Below are positions 195-21,040 of a DNA stretch of 28,366 bases, in pieces. Both the position numbers and the translations under genes were made by a program. Under the pieces are notes generated by a model, which searched no databases, was not told the DNA's origin, and saw only the letters and a program-made list of their open reading frames with translations. The stretch lies in IMG/VR virus record IMGVR_UViG_3300040960_000478, positions 1 through 28,366 of that record. One strand, written 5' to 3'. Position 1 is the first letter of the stretch. Every line of letters starts with the position of its first letter. Source of the stretch: a virus.

Positions 195-866
195 TTAATC
201 CTTCTGATATGCTTTTTTCACAAGTGCTTTGCCTTCGTCAGTCTTGACAATAGCAGCATAAGCCTTTGCGAAAGTTGTGTTGTGCTCTGCTTCATATGCT
301 TTAGCAAGAGCGTTAAGTTTCTCGTTGGGGTCTTCCATATCGCCCTGAGCGGCAGACTTACCAACTTCTTCAGTCATCTCATCAAAGAGGTTGTCCAGTG
401 CTTGCATGAACTCAGCAAACTTCTTGGCTTCCTCTTCTACCAGATCATCATGAGCCTTCAGGAGGACACGAGCGTGATCTTCGGAGATATTCGGGAGGGT
501 CTCTTTACAACGCTTCTGGATTGCGTTCTCAGCCTTTTCAATCTCTGCTTCCTCAAGTTTCTTAAGGATGGGTGCAGGAATGTCAGCTTTGTTAATCTGT
601 TCACCTTCTACTTCGATGAACTCTTCTGGGGCTTTCTTTTCGATACCCTCAGCAGTAATCTTGTAGCCTTCTTCGAGGACTGACTTGCGGAGGGCTTCAT
701 TATCAGCCTTCAGCTTTTCTACATCAGCCTTAAGTGTTTCCACTTCAGCTTCAAACTCATCGAACTTCATCAAAGCGCTCATAGCAGTCTTGCGGTCACA
801 GCCCTTATCGGCCATATACGCTTTAATCTTTTCGTCCATCTCTGGAGTCATTTTATCATCTTCCAT
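195..866 (-). CDS. Probable capsid scaffold protein
   Basis: A 223-residue, highly charged, mostly helical protein with a coiled-coil stretch near residues 35-65 (repeated LKADVEKLKADNEALRKS-type heptads) and many Glu/Lys, as in phage scaffolds that fill the prohead and are then removed. I chose the ATG at 866 because AAAGGAGAAAAC lies directly before it. The frame stays open upstream to 1064. That upstream part (866-968) encodes 'LTELSLVDRPANPLA', the conserved tail of XkdF-like prohead proteases, whose body is in another frame just upstream. So the scaffold could be made both alone from 866 and as the C-terminal part of a frameshifted protease-scaffold fusion, similar in logic to lambda C/Nu3. 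The scaffold role is inferred from position and composition. Confidence 0.7.
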   Translation of the reverse strand: MEDDKMTPEMDEKIKAYMADKGCDRKTAMSALMKFDEFEAEVETLKADVEKLKADNEALRKSVLEEGYKITAEGIEKKAPEEFIEVEGEQINKADIPAPILKKLEEAEIEKAENAIQKRCKETLPNISEDHARVLLKAHDDLVEEEAKKFAEFMQALDNLFDEMTEEVGKSAAQGDMEDPNEKLNALAKAYEAEHNTTFAKAYAAIVKTDEGKALVKKAYQKD

Positions 867-969
867 GTTTTCTCCTTTGGAAGTATCAGCTTTGAAGATT
901 GGGGCCATTGCCAACGGATTAGCTGGCCGATCAACAAGGCTCAATTCAGTTAGGGTGAGTTTCTTGAGT

Positions 970-1635
970 TCAGTTGGCAATGTACTCTTCCTTCTGCGCG
1001 GCACCTCCAATAGAGAAAGCGCCATATTTTCCAATCTTGACATCTTCCCAAAGAGCGTCATCATAGACTTTGTAGCCTGTGATCCACCCTTCCATGTCAG
1101 ATTGAATACCTAATGCTGCACAAATATCTTTAGTGATTGGGAACGAGTGGATAATCTGTCCTACTTGCTCACCTTCGTGCATCAATTTCCCTACTCGTAC
1201 ATTCTCCATAAACTCATTAATTGCTTTATGAAGTGTTTCTGTACGAATGATGTCTCCTTGACGATCAACTACCAAATCACCTTTGTAGGTAGTTACTGAA
1301 GCCCATCCGTAGATGATACGCTGTTCCTCATCTACCTTAATAATCTTGAAGTCGTCTTGAGTTTTATCTGATTTGTTCATAATCTCTGCTACTACTGCTC
1401 GTAGGGCTTCTACCATGCGATCTTCAGTGATCTCTTCTTCGTCATCGTCATCCTCGTACTCCATGTGCTCAAGGTATTCCTTGTGGGTAGCACCGGGGAC
1501 GTAGTAGGCTTGACCATCAAGATCGTATACATGGATTTTACCTTCTAGCCCGATAGCACGAGAGCGTACCTTAGCAGACAGGGGATCACTGAATACATCG
1601 AAGTCAGTTTGGAATTTCTCAATTAATTTATTCAT
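970..1635 (-). CDS. Prohead protease, XkdF-like (Peptidase S78-type), tail out of frame
   Basis: A 221-residue head-maturation protease that would cut scaffold and capsid proteins during prohead assembly. It has 'IIYGWASVTTYKGDLVVDRQGD' near residue 107 and 'FMENVRVGKLMHEGEQVG' near residue 142, the catalytic-region signature of XkdF-like serine proteases, and ends with 'GAFSIGGAAQKEEYIAN'. Family members normally continue with a strand ending in (L/V)TE(I/V)SLVDRPANP. Here that segment is present but in the +1 frame, after the UGA at 970-972, and leads without a stop into the scaffold. An acidic run (YEDDDDEEE) near residue 60 is a likely linker. The start overlaps the stop of the upstream gene (ATGA). 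A programmed +1 shift, a natural break or an assembly indel would all fit. Confidence 0.8.
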   Translation of the reverse strand: MNKLIEKFQTDFDVFSDPLSAKVRSRAIGLEGKIHVYDLDGQAYYVPGATHKEYLEHMEYEDDDDEEEITEDRMVEALRAVVAEIMNKSDKTQDDFKIIKVDEEQRIIYGWASVTTYKGDLVVDRQGDIIRTETLHKAINEFMENVRVGKLMHEGEQVGQIIHSFPITKDICAALGIQSDMEGWITGYKVYDDALWEDVKIGKYGAFSIGGAAQKEEYIAN

Positions 1636-3910: not shown

Positions 3911-4231
3911 TTAGGAGAGTTCTTTGGTGACAACCACCGACAGATTGCCTTTGTTTGGGAAAGTCTCAATAGAGCCGTCTAAGTAAGTTACTTCAAACTC
4001 TACATAGTAAGAGCCGGGGGTGTCAGTATCCCCAGATTGCCAGTCGTATTGAACAACACCATTATCTGCATCTGTAATGGTCATTTGTTGGTCAACCTTT
4101 AGGGTACCATCAATAGACTTCATGTGGAATTGTACAGTAGCACCACTGATCGAGATGGAAGTCCCTTCAAAGTCTTTCAAGGTTGCTTGCAGAGAGGGGG
4201 ATGTGTCGTTCTGTCTGATAGTAAAAGCCAT
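3911..4231 (-). CDS. Ig-like structural protein, BppU N-terminal-like
   Basis: A 106-residue, all-beta protein: 'FTIRQNDTSPSLQATLKD' at the N-terminus, 'GATVQFHMKS' near residue 30, 'GVVQYDWQSGDTDTPGSYYVEFEVTY' near residue 60, then 'ETFPNKGNLSVVV'. This resembles the small immunoglobulin-like module found in phage baseplate/fibre (BppU-like) and neck proteins. It ends 24 bases before the portal start and overlaps the repeat protein upstream by one base at 4231. Role as a tail or head accessory protein is inferred; which structure it joins cannot be read from the sequence. Confidence 0.65.
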   Translation of the reverse strand: MAFTIRQNDTSPSLQATLKDFEGTSISISGATVQFHMKSIDGTLKVDQQMTITDADNGVVQYDWQSGDTDTPGSYYVEFEVTYLDGSIETFPNKGNLSVVVTKELS

Positions 4232-5178
4232 TATGCAACCCTATTAAATTTTTCAGTAAAAGAGGCACTATTACGAGACTCTTCAAAGTCTGCCGTATTG
4301 TATTGCTCTGCCAATTCTACAGTCGTTGTGCTGTTGCCTGTTATAGACACAACCCGTTTACCAGAAACACCCAGAGAAACTTCCCCAACTTGAGGGCTAC
4401 CAGTAACTAAGTTAAGGCCAGACAGGTCGTGTGTTTGAGTAACACTAGGGGAAGATACAACCGGAGTTCCAGTAGTAGTTCCAGTGCAAACTATAATATG
4501 TTGCTGAGTTAGGCCAGTGTTACCAACAGAAGGTGTACCAGAGGTTAAGGTGTTAGGTCCAAGTGCGTAAGATTGCTCAAGTACGGGAGAGCCTAATACA
4601 GGTATACCAGATACAATGTTATCTGTTCCTAGTGTACCTGCTTGACCTACAGTAGGAGACCCTAGAGAAGGGGTGCCAGCCGTTATGTTATCAGCAGTAA
4701 GATCGTGTTCTTGTGTAACTGACGTTGGGTTAACAACAGGATTACCACTTAGTATGTCTACAGTAATAAGCACATCTACTTGGCTTACAGCAGGAGACCC
4801 TAGTGTGGGACTGTCAGTTAGGATGGAGTTCCCAGAGAGGTTATGCTCTTGAGAGACTGTTGTATTACCTACAGATGGAGTGCTTGTGACAATACTTACA
4901 GGAGAAGCTACATGAGTTTGCCCAAGAGAGGTTCCCTCTACAACAGGCGATCCAGACAGGATGCTATCGGCAGAGAGTGTGTCTACTTGGCTTACAGCAG
5001 GAGACCCTAGTGTGGGACTACCAGTGGAGATGGCTACACCACTTAAGGAATGCTCTTGAGAGACTGTTGTATCATTTACAAGAGGTGACCCAGTAATGAT
5101 GCTAGAGGCTGTAAGTACCTCAAGATTAACCCCATCATCCGCTAGGGGTGCAGCAGCTAATGGTGAAAATCCGAGCAT
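4231..5178 (-). CDS. Phage structural protein built of about ten 23-residue repeats
   Basis: A 315-residue protein starting MLGFSPLAAAPLADDG, an N-terminus I associate with marine phage virion proteins. From about residue 24 to 260 it consists of tandem repeats of about 23 residues with the pattern I-x-[ST]-G-x-P-x-[LV]-G-x-x-x-[VL]-x-Q-x-[HD]-x-L-x. The repeats are alternately of two kinds (GSPAVSQVDTL and NTTVSQEHNL types), suggesting duplication of a two-repeat unit. There are almost no charged residues in the repeat part; the last 40 residues are different ('NTADFEESRNSASFTEKFNRVA'). The regular turn-strand pattern suggests an elongated beta structure such as a fibre shaft or tail appendage. 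No database family is claimed. Confidence 0.75.
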   Translation of the reverse strand: MLGFSPLAAAPLADDGVNLEVLTASSIITGSPLVNDTTVSQEHSLSGVAISTGSPTLGSPAVSQVDTLSADSILSGSPVVEGTSLGQTHVASPVSIVTSTPSVGNTTVSQEHNLSGNSILTDSPTLGSPAVSQVDVLITVDILSGNPVVNPTSVTQEHDLTADNITAGTPSLGSPTVGQAGTLGTDNIVSGIPVLGSPVLEQSYALGPNTLTSGTPSVGNTGLTQQHIIVCTGTTTGTPVVSSPSVTQTHDLSGLNLVTGSPQVGEVSLGVSGKRVVSITGNSTTTVELAEQYNTADFEESRNSASFTEKFNRVA

Positions 5179-8770: not shown

Positions 8771-10116
8771 TTTGCGTAGCCCTTAAGCATGAGGTCCGTT
8801 AAAGCCCAAACCATAGCATCGTATCTGTCAGGAGACTTGTGTTTGCCTAGTGGCTCATATGTGGTCATCTGTGTCTCAAGCTCTGTCAGAGGAGCCTCAC
8901 AGTCTCTCACATGGAAGACCTTACCCTGCTCATAGAGGGCACTTACAGGTTCCGCTCTGGCGATCTTAGCGGTACTAGCATGTACACCCTTGAGGGGTAG
9001 GTTCTCATCAATAGTCTTGAAGAGGCTTGGTATGAGGTCTTTACCTTGGTTGCTCTCGTATACGATACGACTACACTCAAATTCGTGGTAAAGAGAAACT
9101 ACCTTATTGGCCCATGTTTCTGGTGAACCCTTGAAGGTGTAATCACCAAGGATATAAGCCTTACCCTGTTCACATATGCCAGCTACAACAATACCAGTGT
9201 TATCTGATTCTACGTTGGAGGATACGGCAGGGTCTACAGCTACAACCTTCCTAATAAGGGGTGGTAGTTCTGAGGAGGTAATCTGACAGTTGTCGATCAT
9301 GTCAGCAGTCCAGAGAGCGCCTTCATTCTCTGTTAGGACTTCAGCATAAAGTTCCTGCCTACCAAGGCGAGTGCCCTCATACTGGGTTTTAACCGCCTCA
9401 AGGTAAGTATCTGCAAGGTTGGCTGCATTATCAAAGGTGGACCCCCTAGCGATAATAGTCTTAGGGTCTGCCATAATCTTGCGTAGTAGCACAGTCGATT
9501 TAGGAGTTGTTGCGATAAAGACTTGTGGATGCTTACCAAGGCGAAGGCAGAATTGGGCCATATCCCAAGTTTCTTGGTCCTTGTTCCAAGCGCAAAGCTC
9601 ATCAGCAGATAAAAACTCGAATTGTGGCCCTCGTAGACGCTCTGGTTCCTCTGCGGAGAACGCTTCTACCTTAGCTACAACATCTGCGTCTTTTCCAGTC
9701 TCTACTCCATTTTTCCACCAGAAAAGGGTTCTTTTAGTTGGGGACCAAGTTGGCATCCCAATGTGTTTTCCCCTTTTTGTTTTGTCGTGGGGAGAGCAAC
9801 AAGCAAGAATACCTGACTCCCCCTTTACAAAAACTTTTTCGATGTCACTGTTTGTAGCGCAGACAATAGCACCACGCTTCTTACCAGATTTGACTTGTGC
9901 TCTTACCCACTCTGCATTTGCGCGGGTCTTTCCCCAACCACGTCCAGCTAGAGCTAGAAATGTGTTCCAATTACCTTCAGGTGGAATTTGCTCAGGTCGC
10001 GCCCAGAATGACCAATCTTTTTGTAACTCTTCTAGCTGTGTCTTAGTCAGACTAGAGAGTGCAGCTTTAACCTCTTCGTCAGGTAACTCTCTAAGTTTAG
10101 CCGCTGTCAGGGTCAT
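8725..10116 (-). CDS. terL: Terminase large subunit (Terminase_6 / GTA-like)
   Basis: A 463-residue DNA-packaging motor. The ATPase domain has Walker A 'AGRGWGKT' (57-64), Walker B 'FEFLSADE' with D172/E173, and the coupling motif 'IATTP' (201-205). The nuclease domain has the acidic 'VVAVDPAVS' (D295), 'YESNQGKD' in the middle and 'RYDAMVWALTDL' near the C-terminus, giving the expected acidic metal-binding set. The 'LAGRGxGKTR.AEWVR' context resembles rhodobacterial gene-transfer-agent and related terminases. The length is typical. Its start overlaps the small-subunit stop by 4 bases, and its last codons are duplicated at 7180-7227. Fully intact. Confidence 0.95.
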   Translation of the reverse strand: MTLTAAKLRELPDEEVKAALSSLTKTQLEELQKDWSFWARPEQIPPEGNWNTFLALAGRGWGKTRANAEWVRAQVKSGKKRGAIVCATNSDIEKVFVKGESGILACCSPHDKTKRGKHIGMPTWSPTKRTLFWWKNGVETGKDADVVAKVEAFSAEEPERLRGPQFEFLSADELCAWNKDQETWDMAQFCLRLGKHPQVFIATTPKSTVLLRKIMADPKTIIARGSTFDNAANLADTYLEAVKTQYEGTRLGRQELYAEVLTENEGALWTADMIDNCQITSSELPPLIRKVVAVDPAVSSNVESDNTGIVVAGICEQGKAYILGDYTFKGSPETWANKVVSLYHEFECSRIVYESNQGKDLIPSLFKTIDENLPLKGVHASTAKIARAEPVSALYEQGKVFHVRDCEAPLTELETQMTTYEPLGKHKSPDRYDAMVWALTDLMLKGYAKPQLKLVYSNSKGLR

Positions 10117-10517
10117 TCTTCCTCAGTGTCCTTACCTAATAGTTTCATCAAGGAATTAACAGCACTCTCAGCTTCTTCCTCTTCAGTACCCACTTCTTGA
10201 GTTTGCTCTGTAGATTTGGGACTCCAGCCACCATGACTACGAAGATAGAGTTCTTGGGATTTCCATGTAACCGGATTGTCTACATCACCATTAAGAGCCT
10301 GATCTACAACTCGACTACCAATCTTTTCAGTAATGTCTGCACGAGTGGAGTAGATGTCTTTACCGTATTTTTTGTAAAAAGTCGTCATTGACGCCGGACT
10401 CCAAGCCATATGCTGTATAGATTGGAACACGTCTTTAATAGGCACACCAGCAGCAATCTGTTGACGCACTTTCTTCCCGATTTCAGGGTTGTATTCTAAA
10501 CCGTGCTTAGGTGGCAT
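10113..10517 (-). CDS. terS: Probable terminase small subunit
   Basis: A 134-residue protein that would recognise phage DNA and load it on the large subunit. The N-terminal half has two short helices compatible with a helix-turn-helix ('EIGKKVRQQIAAGVPIKDVFQSI' then 'SPASMTTFYKKYGKDI'). The middle is helical and the C-terminus is acidic (EEEEAES... DTEEE), as in many small terminases that contact the large subunit. It directly precedes and overlaps the large terminase (ATGA-type, 4 bases) and overlaps the HNH gene's end by 22 bases. The call depends mostly on position and domain layout. Confidence 0.75.
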   Translation of the reverse strand: MPPKHGLEYNPEIGKKVRQQIAAGVPIKDVFQSIQHMAWSPASMTTFYKKYGKDIYSTRADITEKIGSRVVDQALNGDVDNPVTWKSQELYLRSHGGWSPKSTEQTQEVGTEEEEAESAVNSLMKLLGKDTEEE

Positions 10518-10954
10518 GTTTTGTTACTCTTCGATTGATTGACCTCTGCTGGGAGGACTTGTAAGTTCCAAGGTACGTGCAGCCCACACACGTCTTTGCC
10601 CTGAAGCGGTACGATGTGATCTACGTGGTATTGGTCACCAGTAACTACCTCACAATCCCTAGCATGAGCGTAGATGTCTTTAATCTGGTCTAGGTGCTCT
10701 TGGGTAAGCCATTCAGGGGTAGCTTGCAGTTTCTTGGCTCTGCGCTTGGCTACCCTAGCTACATTATCAGACTTCTTGTTCCTGTACCTGTTCTTCTCAT
10801 AGTCCAAGTAATACTGTCTGTTCCTAGAGTAGTAGTCCTTGTTGGTCTTAACCCTACAAGATTTGCACCTTGGCTGTAAACCATCTTTCCTAGATTTACA
10901 TTTACCAAACTCAGAAACTGACTTCTTACTTTTGCAGTAACTACAATACTTCAT
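10496..10954 (-). CDS. HNH endonuclease with N-terminal zinc ribbon
   Basis: A 152-residue nuclease. C4, C7, C30 and C33 form a CxxC...CxxC zinc ribbon; a basic helical linker follows; the C-terminal HNH core is 'YHVDHIVPLQGKDVCGLHVPWNLQVLP' ending 'NQSKSNK', with the DH pair, the N of WNL and the terminal N-x-x-K typical of HNH enzymes. HNH genes next to terminase often help cut DNA during packaging; it could also be a free-standing homing enzyme. I start it at 10954 because AGAGAAGAGAG lies just before that ATG; a longer frame to 11032 would read through a structured hairpin. First gene of the leftward operon. Confidence 0.88.
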   Translation of the reverse strand: MKYCSYCKSKKSVSEFGKCKSRKDGLQPRCKSCRVKTNKDYYSRNRQYYLDYEKNRYRNKKSDNVARVAKRRAKKLQATPEWLTQEHLDQIKDIYAHARDCEVVTGDQYHVDHIVPLQGKDVCGLHVPWNLQVLPAEVNQSKSNKTCHLSTV

Positions 10955-10995
10955 ATCTCTCTTCTCTCTGTTTCTCTCTGTGTGTTTGTTAGAAT

Positions 10996-11027
10996 GGGCC
11001 GACCGAGTTTCGAACCTCAGCCAGCCC
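10996..11027 (-). other. 12-bp hairpin resembling a tRNA acceptor/T-arm minihelix
   Basis: On the minus strand GGGCTGGCTGAG pairs fully with CTCGGTCGGCCC (12 pairs, three of them G-U) around the loop GTTCGAAA. On the plus strand the three G-U pairs would be A-C mismatches, so the structure belongs to leftward RNA. The stem length (7+5), the T-loop-like TTCGAAA and an A right after the 3' side resemble a tRNA minihelix, except that the loop has one extra G. It lies in the leader of the HNH/terminase transcript. No T tract follows, so it is not a usual terminator. Confidence 0.7.
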
Positions 11028-11159
11028 CACAAGATGCCCAGAGAGAGTAAGCATCCTGATGATAGTTACCCCATAGCTTCAAACTACAGGGTCTGTGCTT
11101 CTTCAGCGACAGAACTCTAATAAACAATAACTACACCAATAATTGACAATGATCAGATC

Positions 11160-18614: not shown

Positions 18615-18967
18615 TGACTTCCAAGATGAAATTCTACGAGTTTAGCCAAAATAGCAGCGGAGGTTCTTTTGATGTAGATGAGAAAATCTGCCATCGACTT
18701 TTTATTGAAGCAGAAAGTGAAGGGGAAGCTATTAAAAAAGCAGAGATCATCGGGGTCTACTTTGATGGTGTAGATAATGGGAGGGATTGCGAGTGCTGTG
18801 GTGATCGTTGGGACGGTTGCTATGAGGTAGAGTTTCCTCATTATTCAGGTGCAGATAGTGTAGAGGAAGTTGCTCAGTTCTTAGCTGATAAGTATGGGTG
18901 GACGACTCCAGACGCTCGTATCTTTTACGTGGATGACTCTATCAAAGAGGTGTTTATTAAGAGATGA
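18614..18967 (+). CDS. Conserved phage protein with CxCCGDRW motif
   Basis: 117 residues: 'FYEFSQNSSGGSFDVDEKICHRLFIEAES', 'GVYFDGVDNGRDCECCGDRWDGC', 'ADKYGWTTPDARIFYVDD'. This combination is widespread in otherwise different phages (I recall T4-like and T7-like examples), usually annotated as unknown. The five clustered cysteines suggest metal binding. It lies between primase and polymerase genes and overlaps the exonuclease start (ATGA), so a role near replication is possible. Confidence 0.75.
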   Translation: MTSKMKFYEFSQNSSGGSFDVDEKICHRLFIEAESEGEAIKKAEIIGVYFDGVDNGRDCECCGDRWDGCYEVEFPHYSGADSVEEVAQFLADKYGWTTPDARIFYVDDSIKEVFIKR

Positions 18968-19410
18968 GAACGATAGTAATTGACTCAGAGAGTGATGGTC
19001 TAGCCTATGACTGCACTAAGCTACACGTCCTGAGTTACACTAGAGATGGGGAGACCTACCATAGCACGGGTGACTATGATGACATGAAAGCAGTTCTCAA
19101 TAGTGCTGATCTTATCGTGGCTCATAATGCTATCAGACATGACATGGTGGTATTCAATCGTATCTTGGGTATTCCTATGGACTTCCGTAAGTGGATAGAT
19201 ACTCTAGCTTTGTCTTGGTATTTGTATCCAGATCGACAGAAGCATGGCCTAGCAGAGTGGGGACTTGATCTTGGTGTAGCTAAACCGAAGGTGGATGACT
19301 GGCAGAACCTTAGTTATGAGGAATATGCTCATCGGTGTGAAGCTGACTGCGCAATAAACTGGAAGCTATGGGTTAAGATGAAGAACAGACTTGAGGAGAT
19401 ATACAACTAA
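18964..19410 (+). CDS. DNA polymerase A 3'-5' exonuclease subunit (split gene)
   Basis: 148 residues corresponding to the proofreading domain of T7-like polymerase. Exo I 'VIDSESDGL' (D7, E9), Exo II 'LIVAHNAIRHD' (N55, D60) with D79 in 'WIDTLALSW', and Exo III 'HRCEAD' (H123, D128). T7 has a tyrosine in Exo III (YNVQD); here that place is Arg, but His stands five before the Asp, as in DEDDh exonucleases. Its end touches a small Cys-rich gene, and the polymerase domain starts 197 bases later as a separate gene. The two parts presumably work as a complex. Confidence 0.88.
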   Translation: MRTIVIDSESDGLAYDCTKLHVLSYTRDGETYHSTGDYDDMKAVLNSADLIVAHNAIRHDMVVFNRILGIPMDFRKWIDTLALSWYLYPDRQKHGLAEWGLDLGVAKPKVDDWQNLSYEEYAHRCEADCAINWKLWVKMKNRLEEIYN

Positions 19411-19604
19411 TGGCACTATGCTACAAAGATAAGACCTTTTGTTCCTCTGACTGTACTCGTAGTGATTGCTACAGATACTTCAGTGAGGAAGATCGTGAGG
19501 GTGCTAAAGAGTGGGCTAAGGTTTTGGGTGTAAAAGAAGCATCTATTGCTTGGAGTGATTACTCTAGTACTTGTTTTTGGTATAAACCACCTGTTAAGGA
19601 GTAA
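19410..19604 (+). CDS. Small Cys-rich protein between the polymerase halves
   Basis: 64 residues with seven cysteines: 'CYKDKTFCSSDCTRSDCYRYF' then one Cys at 'STCFWYK'. The C-x6-C-x3-C-x4-C spacing suggests a small zinc-binding fold. I have seen similar MALCYKDxTFC proteins in other marine phages but know no function. It shares one base with the exonuclease stop (TAATG) and is 2 bases before the polymerase ATG, so the three are likely made together and it might bridge the two subunits. That last point is speculation. Confidence 0.7.
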   Translation: MALCYKDKTFCSSDCTRSDCYRYFSEEDREGAKEWAKVLGVKEASIAWSDYSSTCFWYKPPVKE

Positions 19605-19606
19605 CA

Positions 19607-21040
19607 ATGAACAGTGATATTCTAAGGTTTATAAGGTATCTCAGCTTCAAGATGGATTGTCTCCGAGAGCAAGAGGCTAACCCACTTACTTTGGATGTAG
19701 CTAAGTGCGAACAACACCTAAGTGAACTAGAAGCTATGAAGGAGGAAAAGACAGAAGCACTTAAAGAGGCAATGCCTAAGAATCCTATCACTAAGAAAAA
19801 GGAGAAGCCAAAGGTAATCTACAAAGCTGACGGTAGCCTTAGTAAGCACGGTGAGACTTGGTTTAACCTCCTTAGGGAACTCAAGTTACCAGACGACACT
19901 GCTGGGCCTGTGACTTATGTTGATGGCTATGAGGACGGTAACCCTAACTCTACAGACCAAGTGAAGTCTTGGTTATCTTCTTTAGGTTGGAAGCCTCGGA
20001 CTTGGAAGTACATACGTAACAAGACTACGGGGGAAGAGCGTAAGATTGAACAAGTGCGTAAGAATGGTCTTTTGTGTGAGAGTGTCCGAGAGTTGGTATC
20101 CAAAGACCCTGCCATTGAAATGCTTGATGGTCTAACGGTTATTAGTCACCGCATAGGAGTTCTCAAGGGCTTCCTAAACAATGAAAAGAATGGTAAGGTA
20201 GTGGCAGGTGCAGGAGGTTTCACTAACACTCTCAGGCTTCAGCACAGAGCACCTGTGGTCAACCTACCGGGTGTTGAGGCTGCATATGGTGAATGGTGTC
20301 GTGGTGTACTTATTCCCGAAAGTGGTAAGGTAATGATTGGTGCCGATGTGGTATCACTAGAGGATACACTAAAGCAGCACTTTATTTACCCACACGACCC
20401 TGAGTATGTAGAGGAGATGAACACAGAGGGGTTTGATCCACACCTATCACTTGGTATTGAAGCTGGTAAGGTAACAGAGGATGACTACCAGTTCTATGTT
20501 AACTGTGAGGATGAAAATAATGAAAGGTTCAAGAGTATCAAGTCTATTCGTAAGCCCATGAAGACCACTAACTACGCTTGTCAGTACAATGTTGGCGCTA
20601 AGACTTTGGCAAGAAACTCTGGCATGACTGAACGAGAAGCTGGACAACTTATTGACGCCTACTGGAAGAAGAACTGGGCCATCAAGAAGGTTGCAAAAGA
20701 GCAGTATGTAAAGACCCTTAGAGATGGGACCATGTGGCTTAAGAATCCTATCAATGGCTTCTACTACAGCCTGAGATATGAGAAAGACATCTTTAGCACT
20801 TTAGTTCAAGGTTCTGGGGACTATGTTTTCAACCTTTGGAGTGCGTTTTGCAGAAAGGAAGGTATTAAACTACACCTTAATTATCATGATGAGTGGTTAA
20901 CCAGTGTTGAAGTTGGAAAAGAGGGTAAGGTAATCGAGAAAGCACAGATGGCTATGGATAAAACAAATGAAATACTGAAGTTGAACAAAGAGATTAAGAT
21001 GGATGCACAAGGGGGATATTCTTATGCGGAGTGCCACTGA
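19607..21040 (+). CDS. DNA polymerase A, T7 gp5-like polymerase domain (split gene)
   Basis: 477 residues, palm-fingers-thumb. Motif A 'GADVVSLEDTL' (D247, E252); motif B R315, K319, Y323, Y327 ('RKPMKTTNYACQYNVG'); motif C 'YHDEW' (H427-E429). The C-terminus ends '...AECH', as T7 gp5 ends in 'AICH'. Tyr323 is at the place of T7 Y526 / E. coli F762, the residue governing dideoxynucleotide acceptance. The N-terminal 200 residues carry a lysine-rich stretch (ITKKKEKPK) and no exonuclease motifs; these are in the gene at 18964. Clearly a functional pair rather than a decayed gene, because all motifs survive. Confidence 0.93.
   Translation: MNSDILRFIRYLSFKMDCLREQEANPLTLDVAKCEQHLSELEAMKEEKTEALKEAMPKNPITKKKEKPKVIYKADGSLSKHGETWFNLLRELKLPDDTAGPVTYVDGYEDGNPNSTDQVKSWLSSLGWKPRTWKYIRNKTTGEERKIEQVRKNGLLCESVRELVSKDPAIEMLDGLTVISHRIGVLKGFLNNEKNGKVVAGAGGFTNTLRLQHRAPVVNLPGVEAAYGEWCRGVLIPESGKVMIGADVVSLEDTLKQHFIYPHDPEYVEEMNTEGFDPHLSLGIEAGKVTEDDYQFYVNCEDENNERFKSIKSIRKPMKTTNYACQYNVGAKTLARNSGMTEREAGQLIDAYWKKNWAIKKVAKEQYVKTLRDGTMWLKNPINGFYYSLRYEKDIFSTLVQGSGDYVFNLWSAFCRKEGIKLHLNYHDEWLTSVEVGKEGKVIEKAQMAMDKTNEILKLNKEIKMDAQGGYSYAECH

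Follow-up and report, generated by a model that had tools for sequence, protein, structure and literature searches.

The window, a stretch of 28,366 nucleotides that makes up IMG/VR virus record IMGVR_UViG_3300040960_000478, derives from a marine phage. It raises the question of how a prohead protease is expressed when its gene stops just past the catalytic-serine motif, while the segment that follows this motif in single-chain homologues lies one base on, in the frame of the adjoining scaffold gene. The earlier note had answered this with a programmed +1 frameshift at AAC-UGA-A, which would yield a protease-scaffold fusion beside free scaffold. It is understood only in part what keeps the maturation proteases of tailed phages and herpesviruses inactive before the shell has been built.

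Prohead protease gene and the downstream frame

The minus-strand protease ORF (1635-970) reads GGAAQKEEYIAN immediately before its UGA, and the earlier note had placed this end correctly at 970-972. The encoded protein consists of an N-terminal extension followed by a catalytic core with an MHxGE histidine and an FSIGG serine motif. Residues 96-217 match PF14550 (E 1.3e-15), covering positions 3-126 of the 126 in the profile with 58 bits against a gathering cut-off of 24, and the His and Ser columns are invariant across the protease alignments. Based on the profile and these conserved residues, we assign the protein to the XkdF-like family (PF14550) as a predicted protease. PF14550 was its only Pfam match, with none to PF04586, and the curated PF14550 profile stops at the Ser motif. 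The N-terminus of these proteases is modular: in loci L010, L024, L027, L037, and L074, one or two added domains precede the constant core, including a ChaB-like start (MPY..SNVP), a block with KKFGVYVKDGGKTKKVTFGDP..RRDD..ARANFR..H.C, and others. Such proteins are often annotated as “DNA methyltransferase” or “hypothetical”, and they look truncated because of the two-gene layout described below.

Shifted by one base, a second minus-strand frame stays open from above 1064 down to 195; it reads ...LPTELKKLTLTELSLVDRPANPLAMAPIFKAD... and continues past LTELSLVDRPANP to encode a scaffold-like protein that ends at 195. The earlier note had recognised LTELSLVDRPANP as an XkdF-type segment displaced by one base, and such a segment does follow the Ser motif in single-chain homologues. 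The scaffold gene sits between the protease and capsid genes, as in Roseobacter phage CRP-6 (MK613348), and its long form has counterparts in CRP-6 gp54 and about 80 IMG/VR relatives. Its position, composition, and distant PHROG matches suggest that it encodes the scaffold.

Table 1 Predicted features of the protease-scaffold junction in the window
Feature	Position	Strand	Size or basis
Prohead protease gene, XkdF type (PF14550)	970..1635	(-)	221 aa; stop UGA 972-970
Ribosome-binding site AAGGA of the long scaffold start	989..993	(-)	Sequence; equivalent site in relatives
TTG start codon of the long scaffold	978..980	(-)	ATG, GTG or TTG at the equivalent place in relatives
Long scaffold gene	195..980	(-)	261 aa; 11 nt overlap with the protease gene; ORF
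PAN module, 38 codons, PTELKKLTLTELSLVDRPANPLAMAPIFKADTSKGEN	867..980	(-)	Homologous to the strand after the catalytic-Ser motif in single-chain proteases
Ribosome-binding site AAGGAG of the internal start	872..877	(-)	Shine-Dalgarno and Gly-codon statistics in relatives
Short scaffold frame, ATG 866, without the PAN module	195..866	(-)	223 aa

Evidence for separate initiation of the two genes

At the junction, the window reads GAGTACA-TTG-CCAACTGAACTC, while the corresponding sequences are GAGTTCA-ATG-CCAACGGAACTT in L006, GAGTTCA-ATG-CCAACTGAACTT in L007, CTTTGAG-GTG-CCTACG in L008, and GAGTTATA-ATG-GCTAAC in CRP-6. In each, the start codon abuts an LxLxELSLVDxPAN (LxLxELSLVDRPAN) segment and lies 5-9 nt past AAGGA(G) or AGGAG. 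The TTG start is common to the window and L024, L035, L071, L125, and L134. Since the second frame has a start codon of its own, no ribosomal frameshift is needed to reach it.

A +1 slip would suit frames offset by a single base, and its product would be colinear with the single-chain homologues. However, the relation between the frames varies among relatives: across 66 distinct junctions, the second frame is +1 in 43, +2 in 19, and 0 in 4. The start-picking script chose an upstream TTG in L002, L032, L033, L114, L118, and L120, and in a few other loci (e.g. L106, L111, L127, and L133) a codon further downstream, which affects these counts little, and the proper start is visible in the printed sequence. 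Hence the two-frame layout for which the earlier note wanted relatives aligned recurs in many of them, but with no fixed frame relation. Nor is the UGA conserved, being missing in the close relative L006 (AAC-GGA); an endonuclease cassette can separate the two genes; and the second frame is already explained by a start codon with a Shine-Dalgarno sequence. The prfB site is CUU-UGA-C with a Shine-Dalgarno sequence three bases upstream. As in prfB, the junction in the window has a UGA preceded by purine-rich sequence, but the codon is AAC, the purine run lies about 15 nt away, and neither slip codon nor spacing nor frame is conserved. The stretch AGAAGGAAG (987-995), suggested earlier as a possible stimulator, instead holds the ribosome-binding site of TTG 980. 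With neither a shift site nor a frame relation conserved among the relatives, we rejected a programmed +1 frameshift gene and regard this reading as highly improbable. What survives of it is the protease-type strand in the scaffold frame and the second start at 866, both of which are conserved.

A programmed shift would not survive such changes of frame, UGA, and cassette, whereas a start codon does, so we consider it very probable that these are two separately initiated, slightly overlapping genes, the scaffold having its own start, and not one frameshifted gene. Against this stands the weakness of the codon TTG, at which the long scaffold is predicted to start in the window. Ribosomes would complete the protease at UGA 972-970, and translation of the scaffold would begin at TTG 980, guided by the Shine-Dalgarno sequence AAGGA (993-989), either by translational coupling, which we infer at the junction, or by direct initiation. 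Other ribosomes would initiate at ATG 866.

An assembly or sequencing indel that split one continuous protease-scaffold gene, also raised in the earlier note, would explain why the joined product resembles natural single-chain proteins. A different contig, IMGVR_UViG_3300042019_000089 (L002), aligns with the window over 2315 nt at 96.2% identity with 89 mismatches and 0 gaps, and its junction is letter-for-letter identical. Relatives including isolate genomes such as CRP-6 also have two genes. We give the indel practically no credence: the two-frame layout is genuine, an assembly error being excluded by the independent contig. As judged from the alignments, the layout is also beyond chance, recurring with the same protein segment in many relatives.

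Endonuclease cassette and recombination at the locus

The flanks in L113 and L003 match the window at 99.74% and 99.86% identity, and exactly at the protease-scaffold junction between them lies a 432-nt cassette that carries an endonuclease VII/HNH-type gene. It is bordered by TGCC on both sides, and the scaffold starts at an ATG at the cassette end. In L003, the TTG that begins the scaffold in the window instead begins the endonuclease gene, whose 3' end provides the new scaffold ATG. Insertions of such genes (phrog_1035) at this junction are repeated (L003/L113/L018); the gene is intact in L003 and L022 (about 2455-2990 in L022), and a remnant is present in L067/L069. The window has a member of the phrog_1035 family elsewhere (10496-11032, minus strand), which overlaps the start of the next structural gene (10113-10517).

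Upstream of about 1450, L010 is 95-98% identical to the window; downstream of about 730 the identity is about 90%, and between these points it drops to 53-64%. L019, L009, and L022 switch identity at the same lower point, about 730. A sharp recombination block at about 1450-730 of the window, with flanks about 90-98% identical, is seen against L010/L021. The exchanged block comprises the protease core, the PAN module, and the first part of the scaffold, with its edges off the gene boundary. The exchange is suggestive of co-inheritance of core, PAN, and scaffold start, and it may be a single event.

PAN strand in single-chain and two-gene relatives

In psiM100 ORF12 and Streptomyces phage Annadreamy gp26 (PF14550, Peptidase_S78_2), as across the two window genes, a core with His and Ser motifs is followed by the PAN strand after the catalytic-Ser motif. 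Unlike the window, both carry core, PAN, and a scaffold-like tail on one chain; the window was rejected as a single-chain protein of this type, since its ORFs are separated by a stop and a new start. In Annadreamy gp26, the PAN strand lies inside a match to the HK97-type domain PF04586 (Peptidase_S78; residues 104-166), a likeness to HK97-type prohead proteases that stops short of the window protease, which has no such match. When the PAN columns of the downstream gene were added to the split-core profile, the hhalign score against Annadreamy rose from 85.3 to 118.4 and that against psiM100 from 100.3 to 113.2; with the PAN columns shuffled thirty times, the scores reached no more than 94.1 and 102.9, respectively. 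In addition, phrog_21715 contains both the protease core and PAN parts in one chain. By profile comparison, PAN is homologous to the strand after the catalytic-Ser motif of the single-chain homologues.

Our survey took in about 150 loci, among them some from phages that infect Vibrio, Rhizobium, Enterobacter, Klebsiella, Pseudomonas, and Roseobacter. In nearly all, the protease ORF ends 10-19 residues past the Ser motif, and a PAN-like strand begins the gene that follows; versions that are more divergent, judged by eye, occur in PaP1, phiPsa315, Sansa, PG28, and Azospirillum. Only the psiM100 and Annadreamy types are clearly single-chain. Because many loci are closely related, the independent cases are fewer, namely 33 at under 75% identity. 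As far as these alignments go, the layout is unusual and widespread, a strand of the single-chain protease forming the front of a separate scaffold gene in most relatives examined. In the open literature, which misses most subscription papers, we found no account of an XkdF protease split in this way.

The closest known system is CRP-6 gp55/gp54, annotated as hypothetical. It shares with the window the gene order, an XkdF core that ends just past the Ser motif, and a PAN module that opens gp54 with an internal ATG past it, and it differs in a TAATG junction, with the second gene in +2 and ATG in place of TTG. The layout can serve as a guide to naming the scaffold gene that adjoins XkdF-type proteases.

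Internal start of the scaffold gene

ATG 866 lies directly past the PAN module, behind AAAGGAG, and the earlier note's description of a scaffold with its own strong ribosome-binding site and start here is borne out by conservation in relatives. Of the 65 distinct sequences with the internal ATG, 59 have a Shine-Dalgarno match of at least 4 bases in front of it; for in-frame ATGs further on, the count is 114 of 550. Within this Shine-Dalgarno sequence, glycine is encoded by GGA in 26/28, versus 149/859 glycines elsewhere (Fisher p about 3e-17, a value inflated by relatedness). The internal ATG is missing in more distant phages. A conserved internal start with a ribosome-binding site, the hallmark of a nested-start scaffold, points to a predicted short scaffold without PAN being made in the window's clade.

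In lambda C/Nu3 and herpesvirus UL26/UL26.5, nested starts give long and short scaffold forms, the long form covalently carrying the whole protease. The window scaffold is likewise predicted in long and short forms from nested starts, but its long form would carry one strand only, with the core on a separate protein.

Possible completion of the protease in trans

PAN homology and colinearity place an element missing from the protease on another gene; its status as a core element depends on the fold. We tentatively propose, at rather less than an even chance, that the protease core is incomplete alone and receives the PAN strand in trans from the long scaffold. PAN would then pair with the Ser strand, the protease would be recruited to, or completed on, PAN-bearing scaffold inside the procapsid, and the short form would serve as bulk scaffold. 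As the enzyme would be complete only where PAN-bearing scaffold is present, activation would be coupled to procapsid assembly, and in the window's clade the PAN-free second start would set the dose. It is conceivable, though we would not yet favour it, that a widespread class of tailed phages has such a split prohead protease, with the core on one protein and the last core strand as the scaffold N-terminus. If the scaffold does supply the missing strand, activation by assembly would be directly testable with two small proteins.

The AlphaFold model of the window core without PAN had a pLDDT of 72, with residues 114-130, including the Ser, below 50; that of a natural single chain was weak (pLDDT 51) and placed the PAN strand after the Ser strand. 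Both weak models fit pairing in trans, and neither proves it. The window core model matches predicted XkdF proteins in BFVD. A PDB search with the single-chain and window-core models gave no convincing match, and no solved structure of a relative was found. A scan of genome contigs with three sequences gave no match.

The core might equally be complete and active alone, with PAN left over from an ancestral gene in which protease and scaffold were fused, or serving only as a docking or targeting tag, and we hold this alternative to be evenly balanced. The curated PF14550 profile ends at the Ser motif, so the core might do without PAN; moreover, the window's clade has conserved a scaffold start that leaves PAN out, and no solved structure or confident model shows that the strand is needed. 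A mere remnant should decay, however, and is disfavoured by the conservation of PAN, which is kept across distant phages and mostly exceeds the scaffold body in conservation (0.81 versus 0.55 in L114 and 0.71 versus 0.43 in L117), the scaffold body being the more conserved only in the recombinants L010 and L008. A docking role stays plausible.

Other observations in the window

A family A DNA polymerase is encoded in two ORFs (18964-21040, plus strand), an exonuclease part (18964-19410) and a polymerase part (19607-21040), which correspond to adjacent stretches of phrog_17. Between them lies a small Cys-rich ORF of about 62 residues that starts at TAATG. At 4231-5178 (minus strand), the window encodes a 315-residue protein of repeated SQEHxLSGxxIxTGSPxLGSP-like units with no Pfam match.
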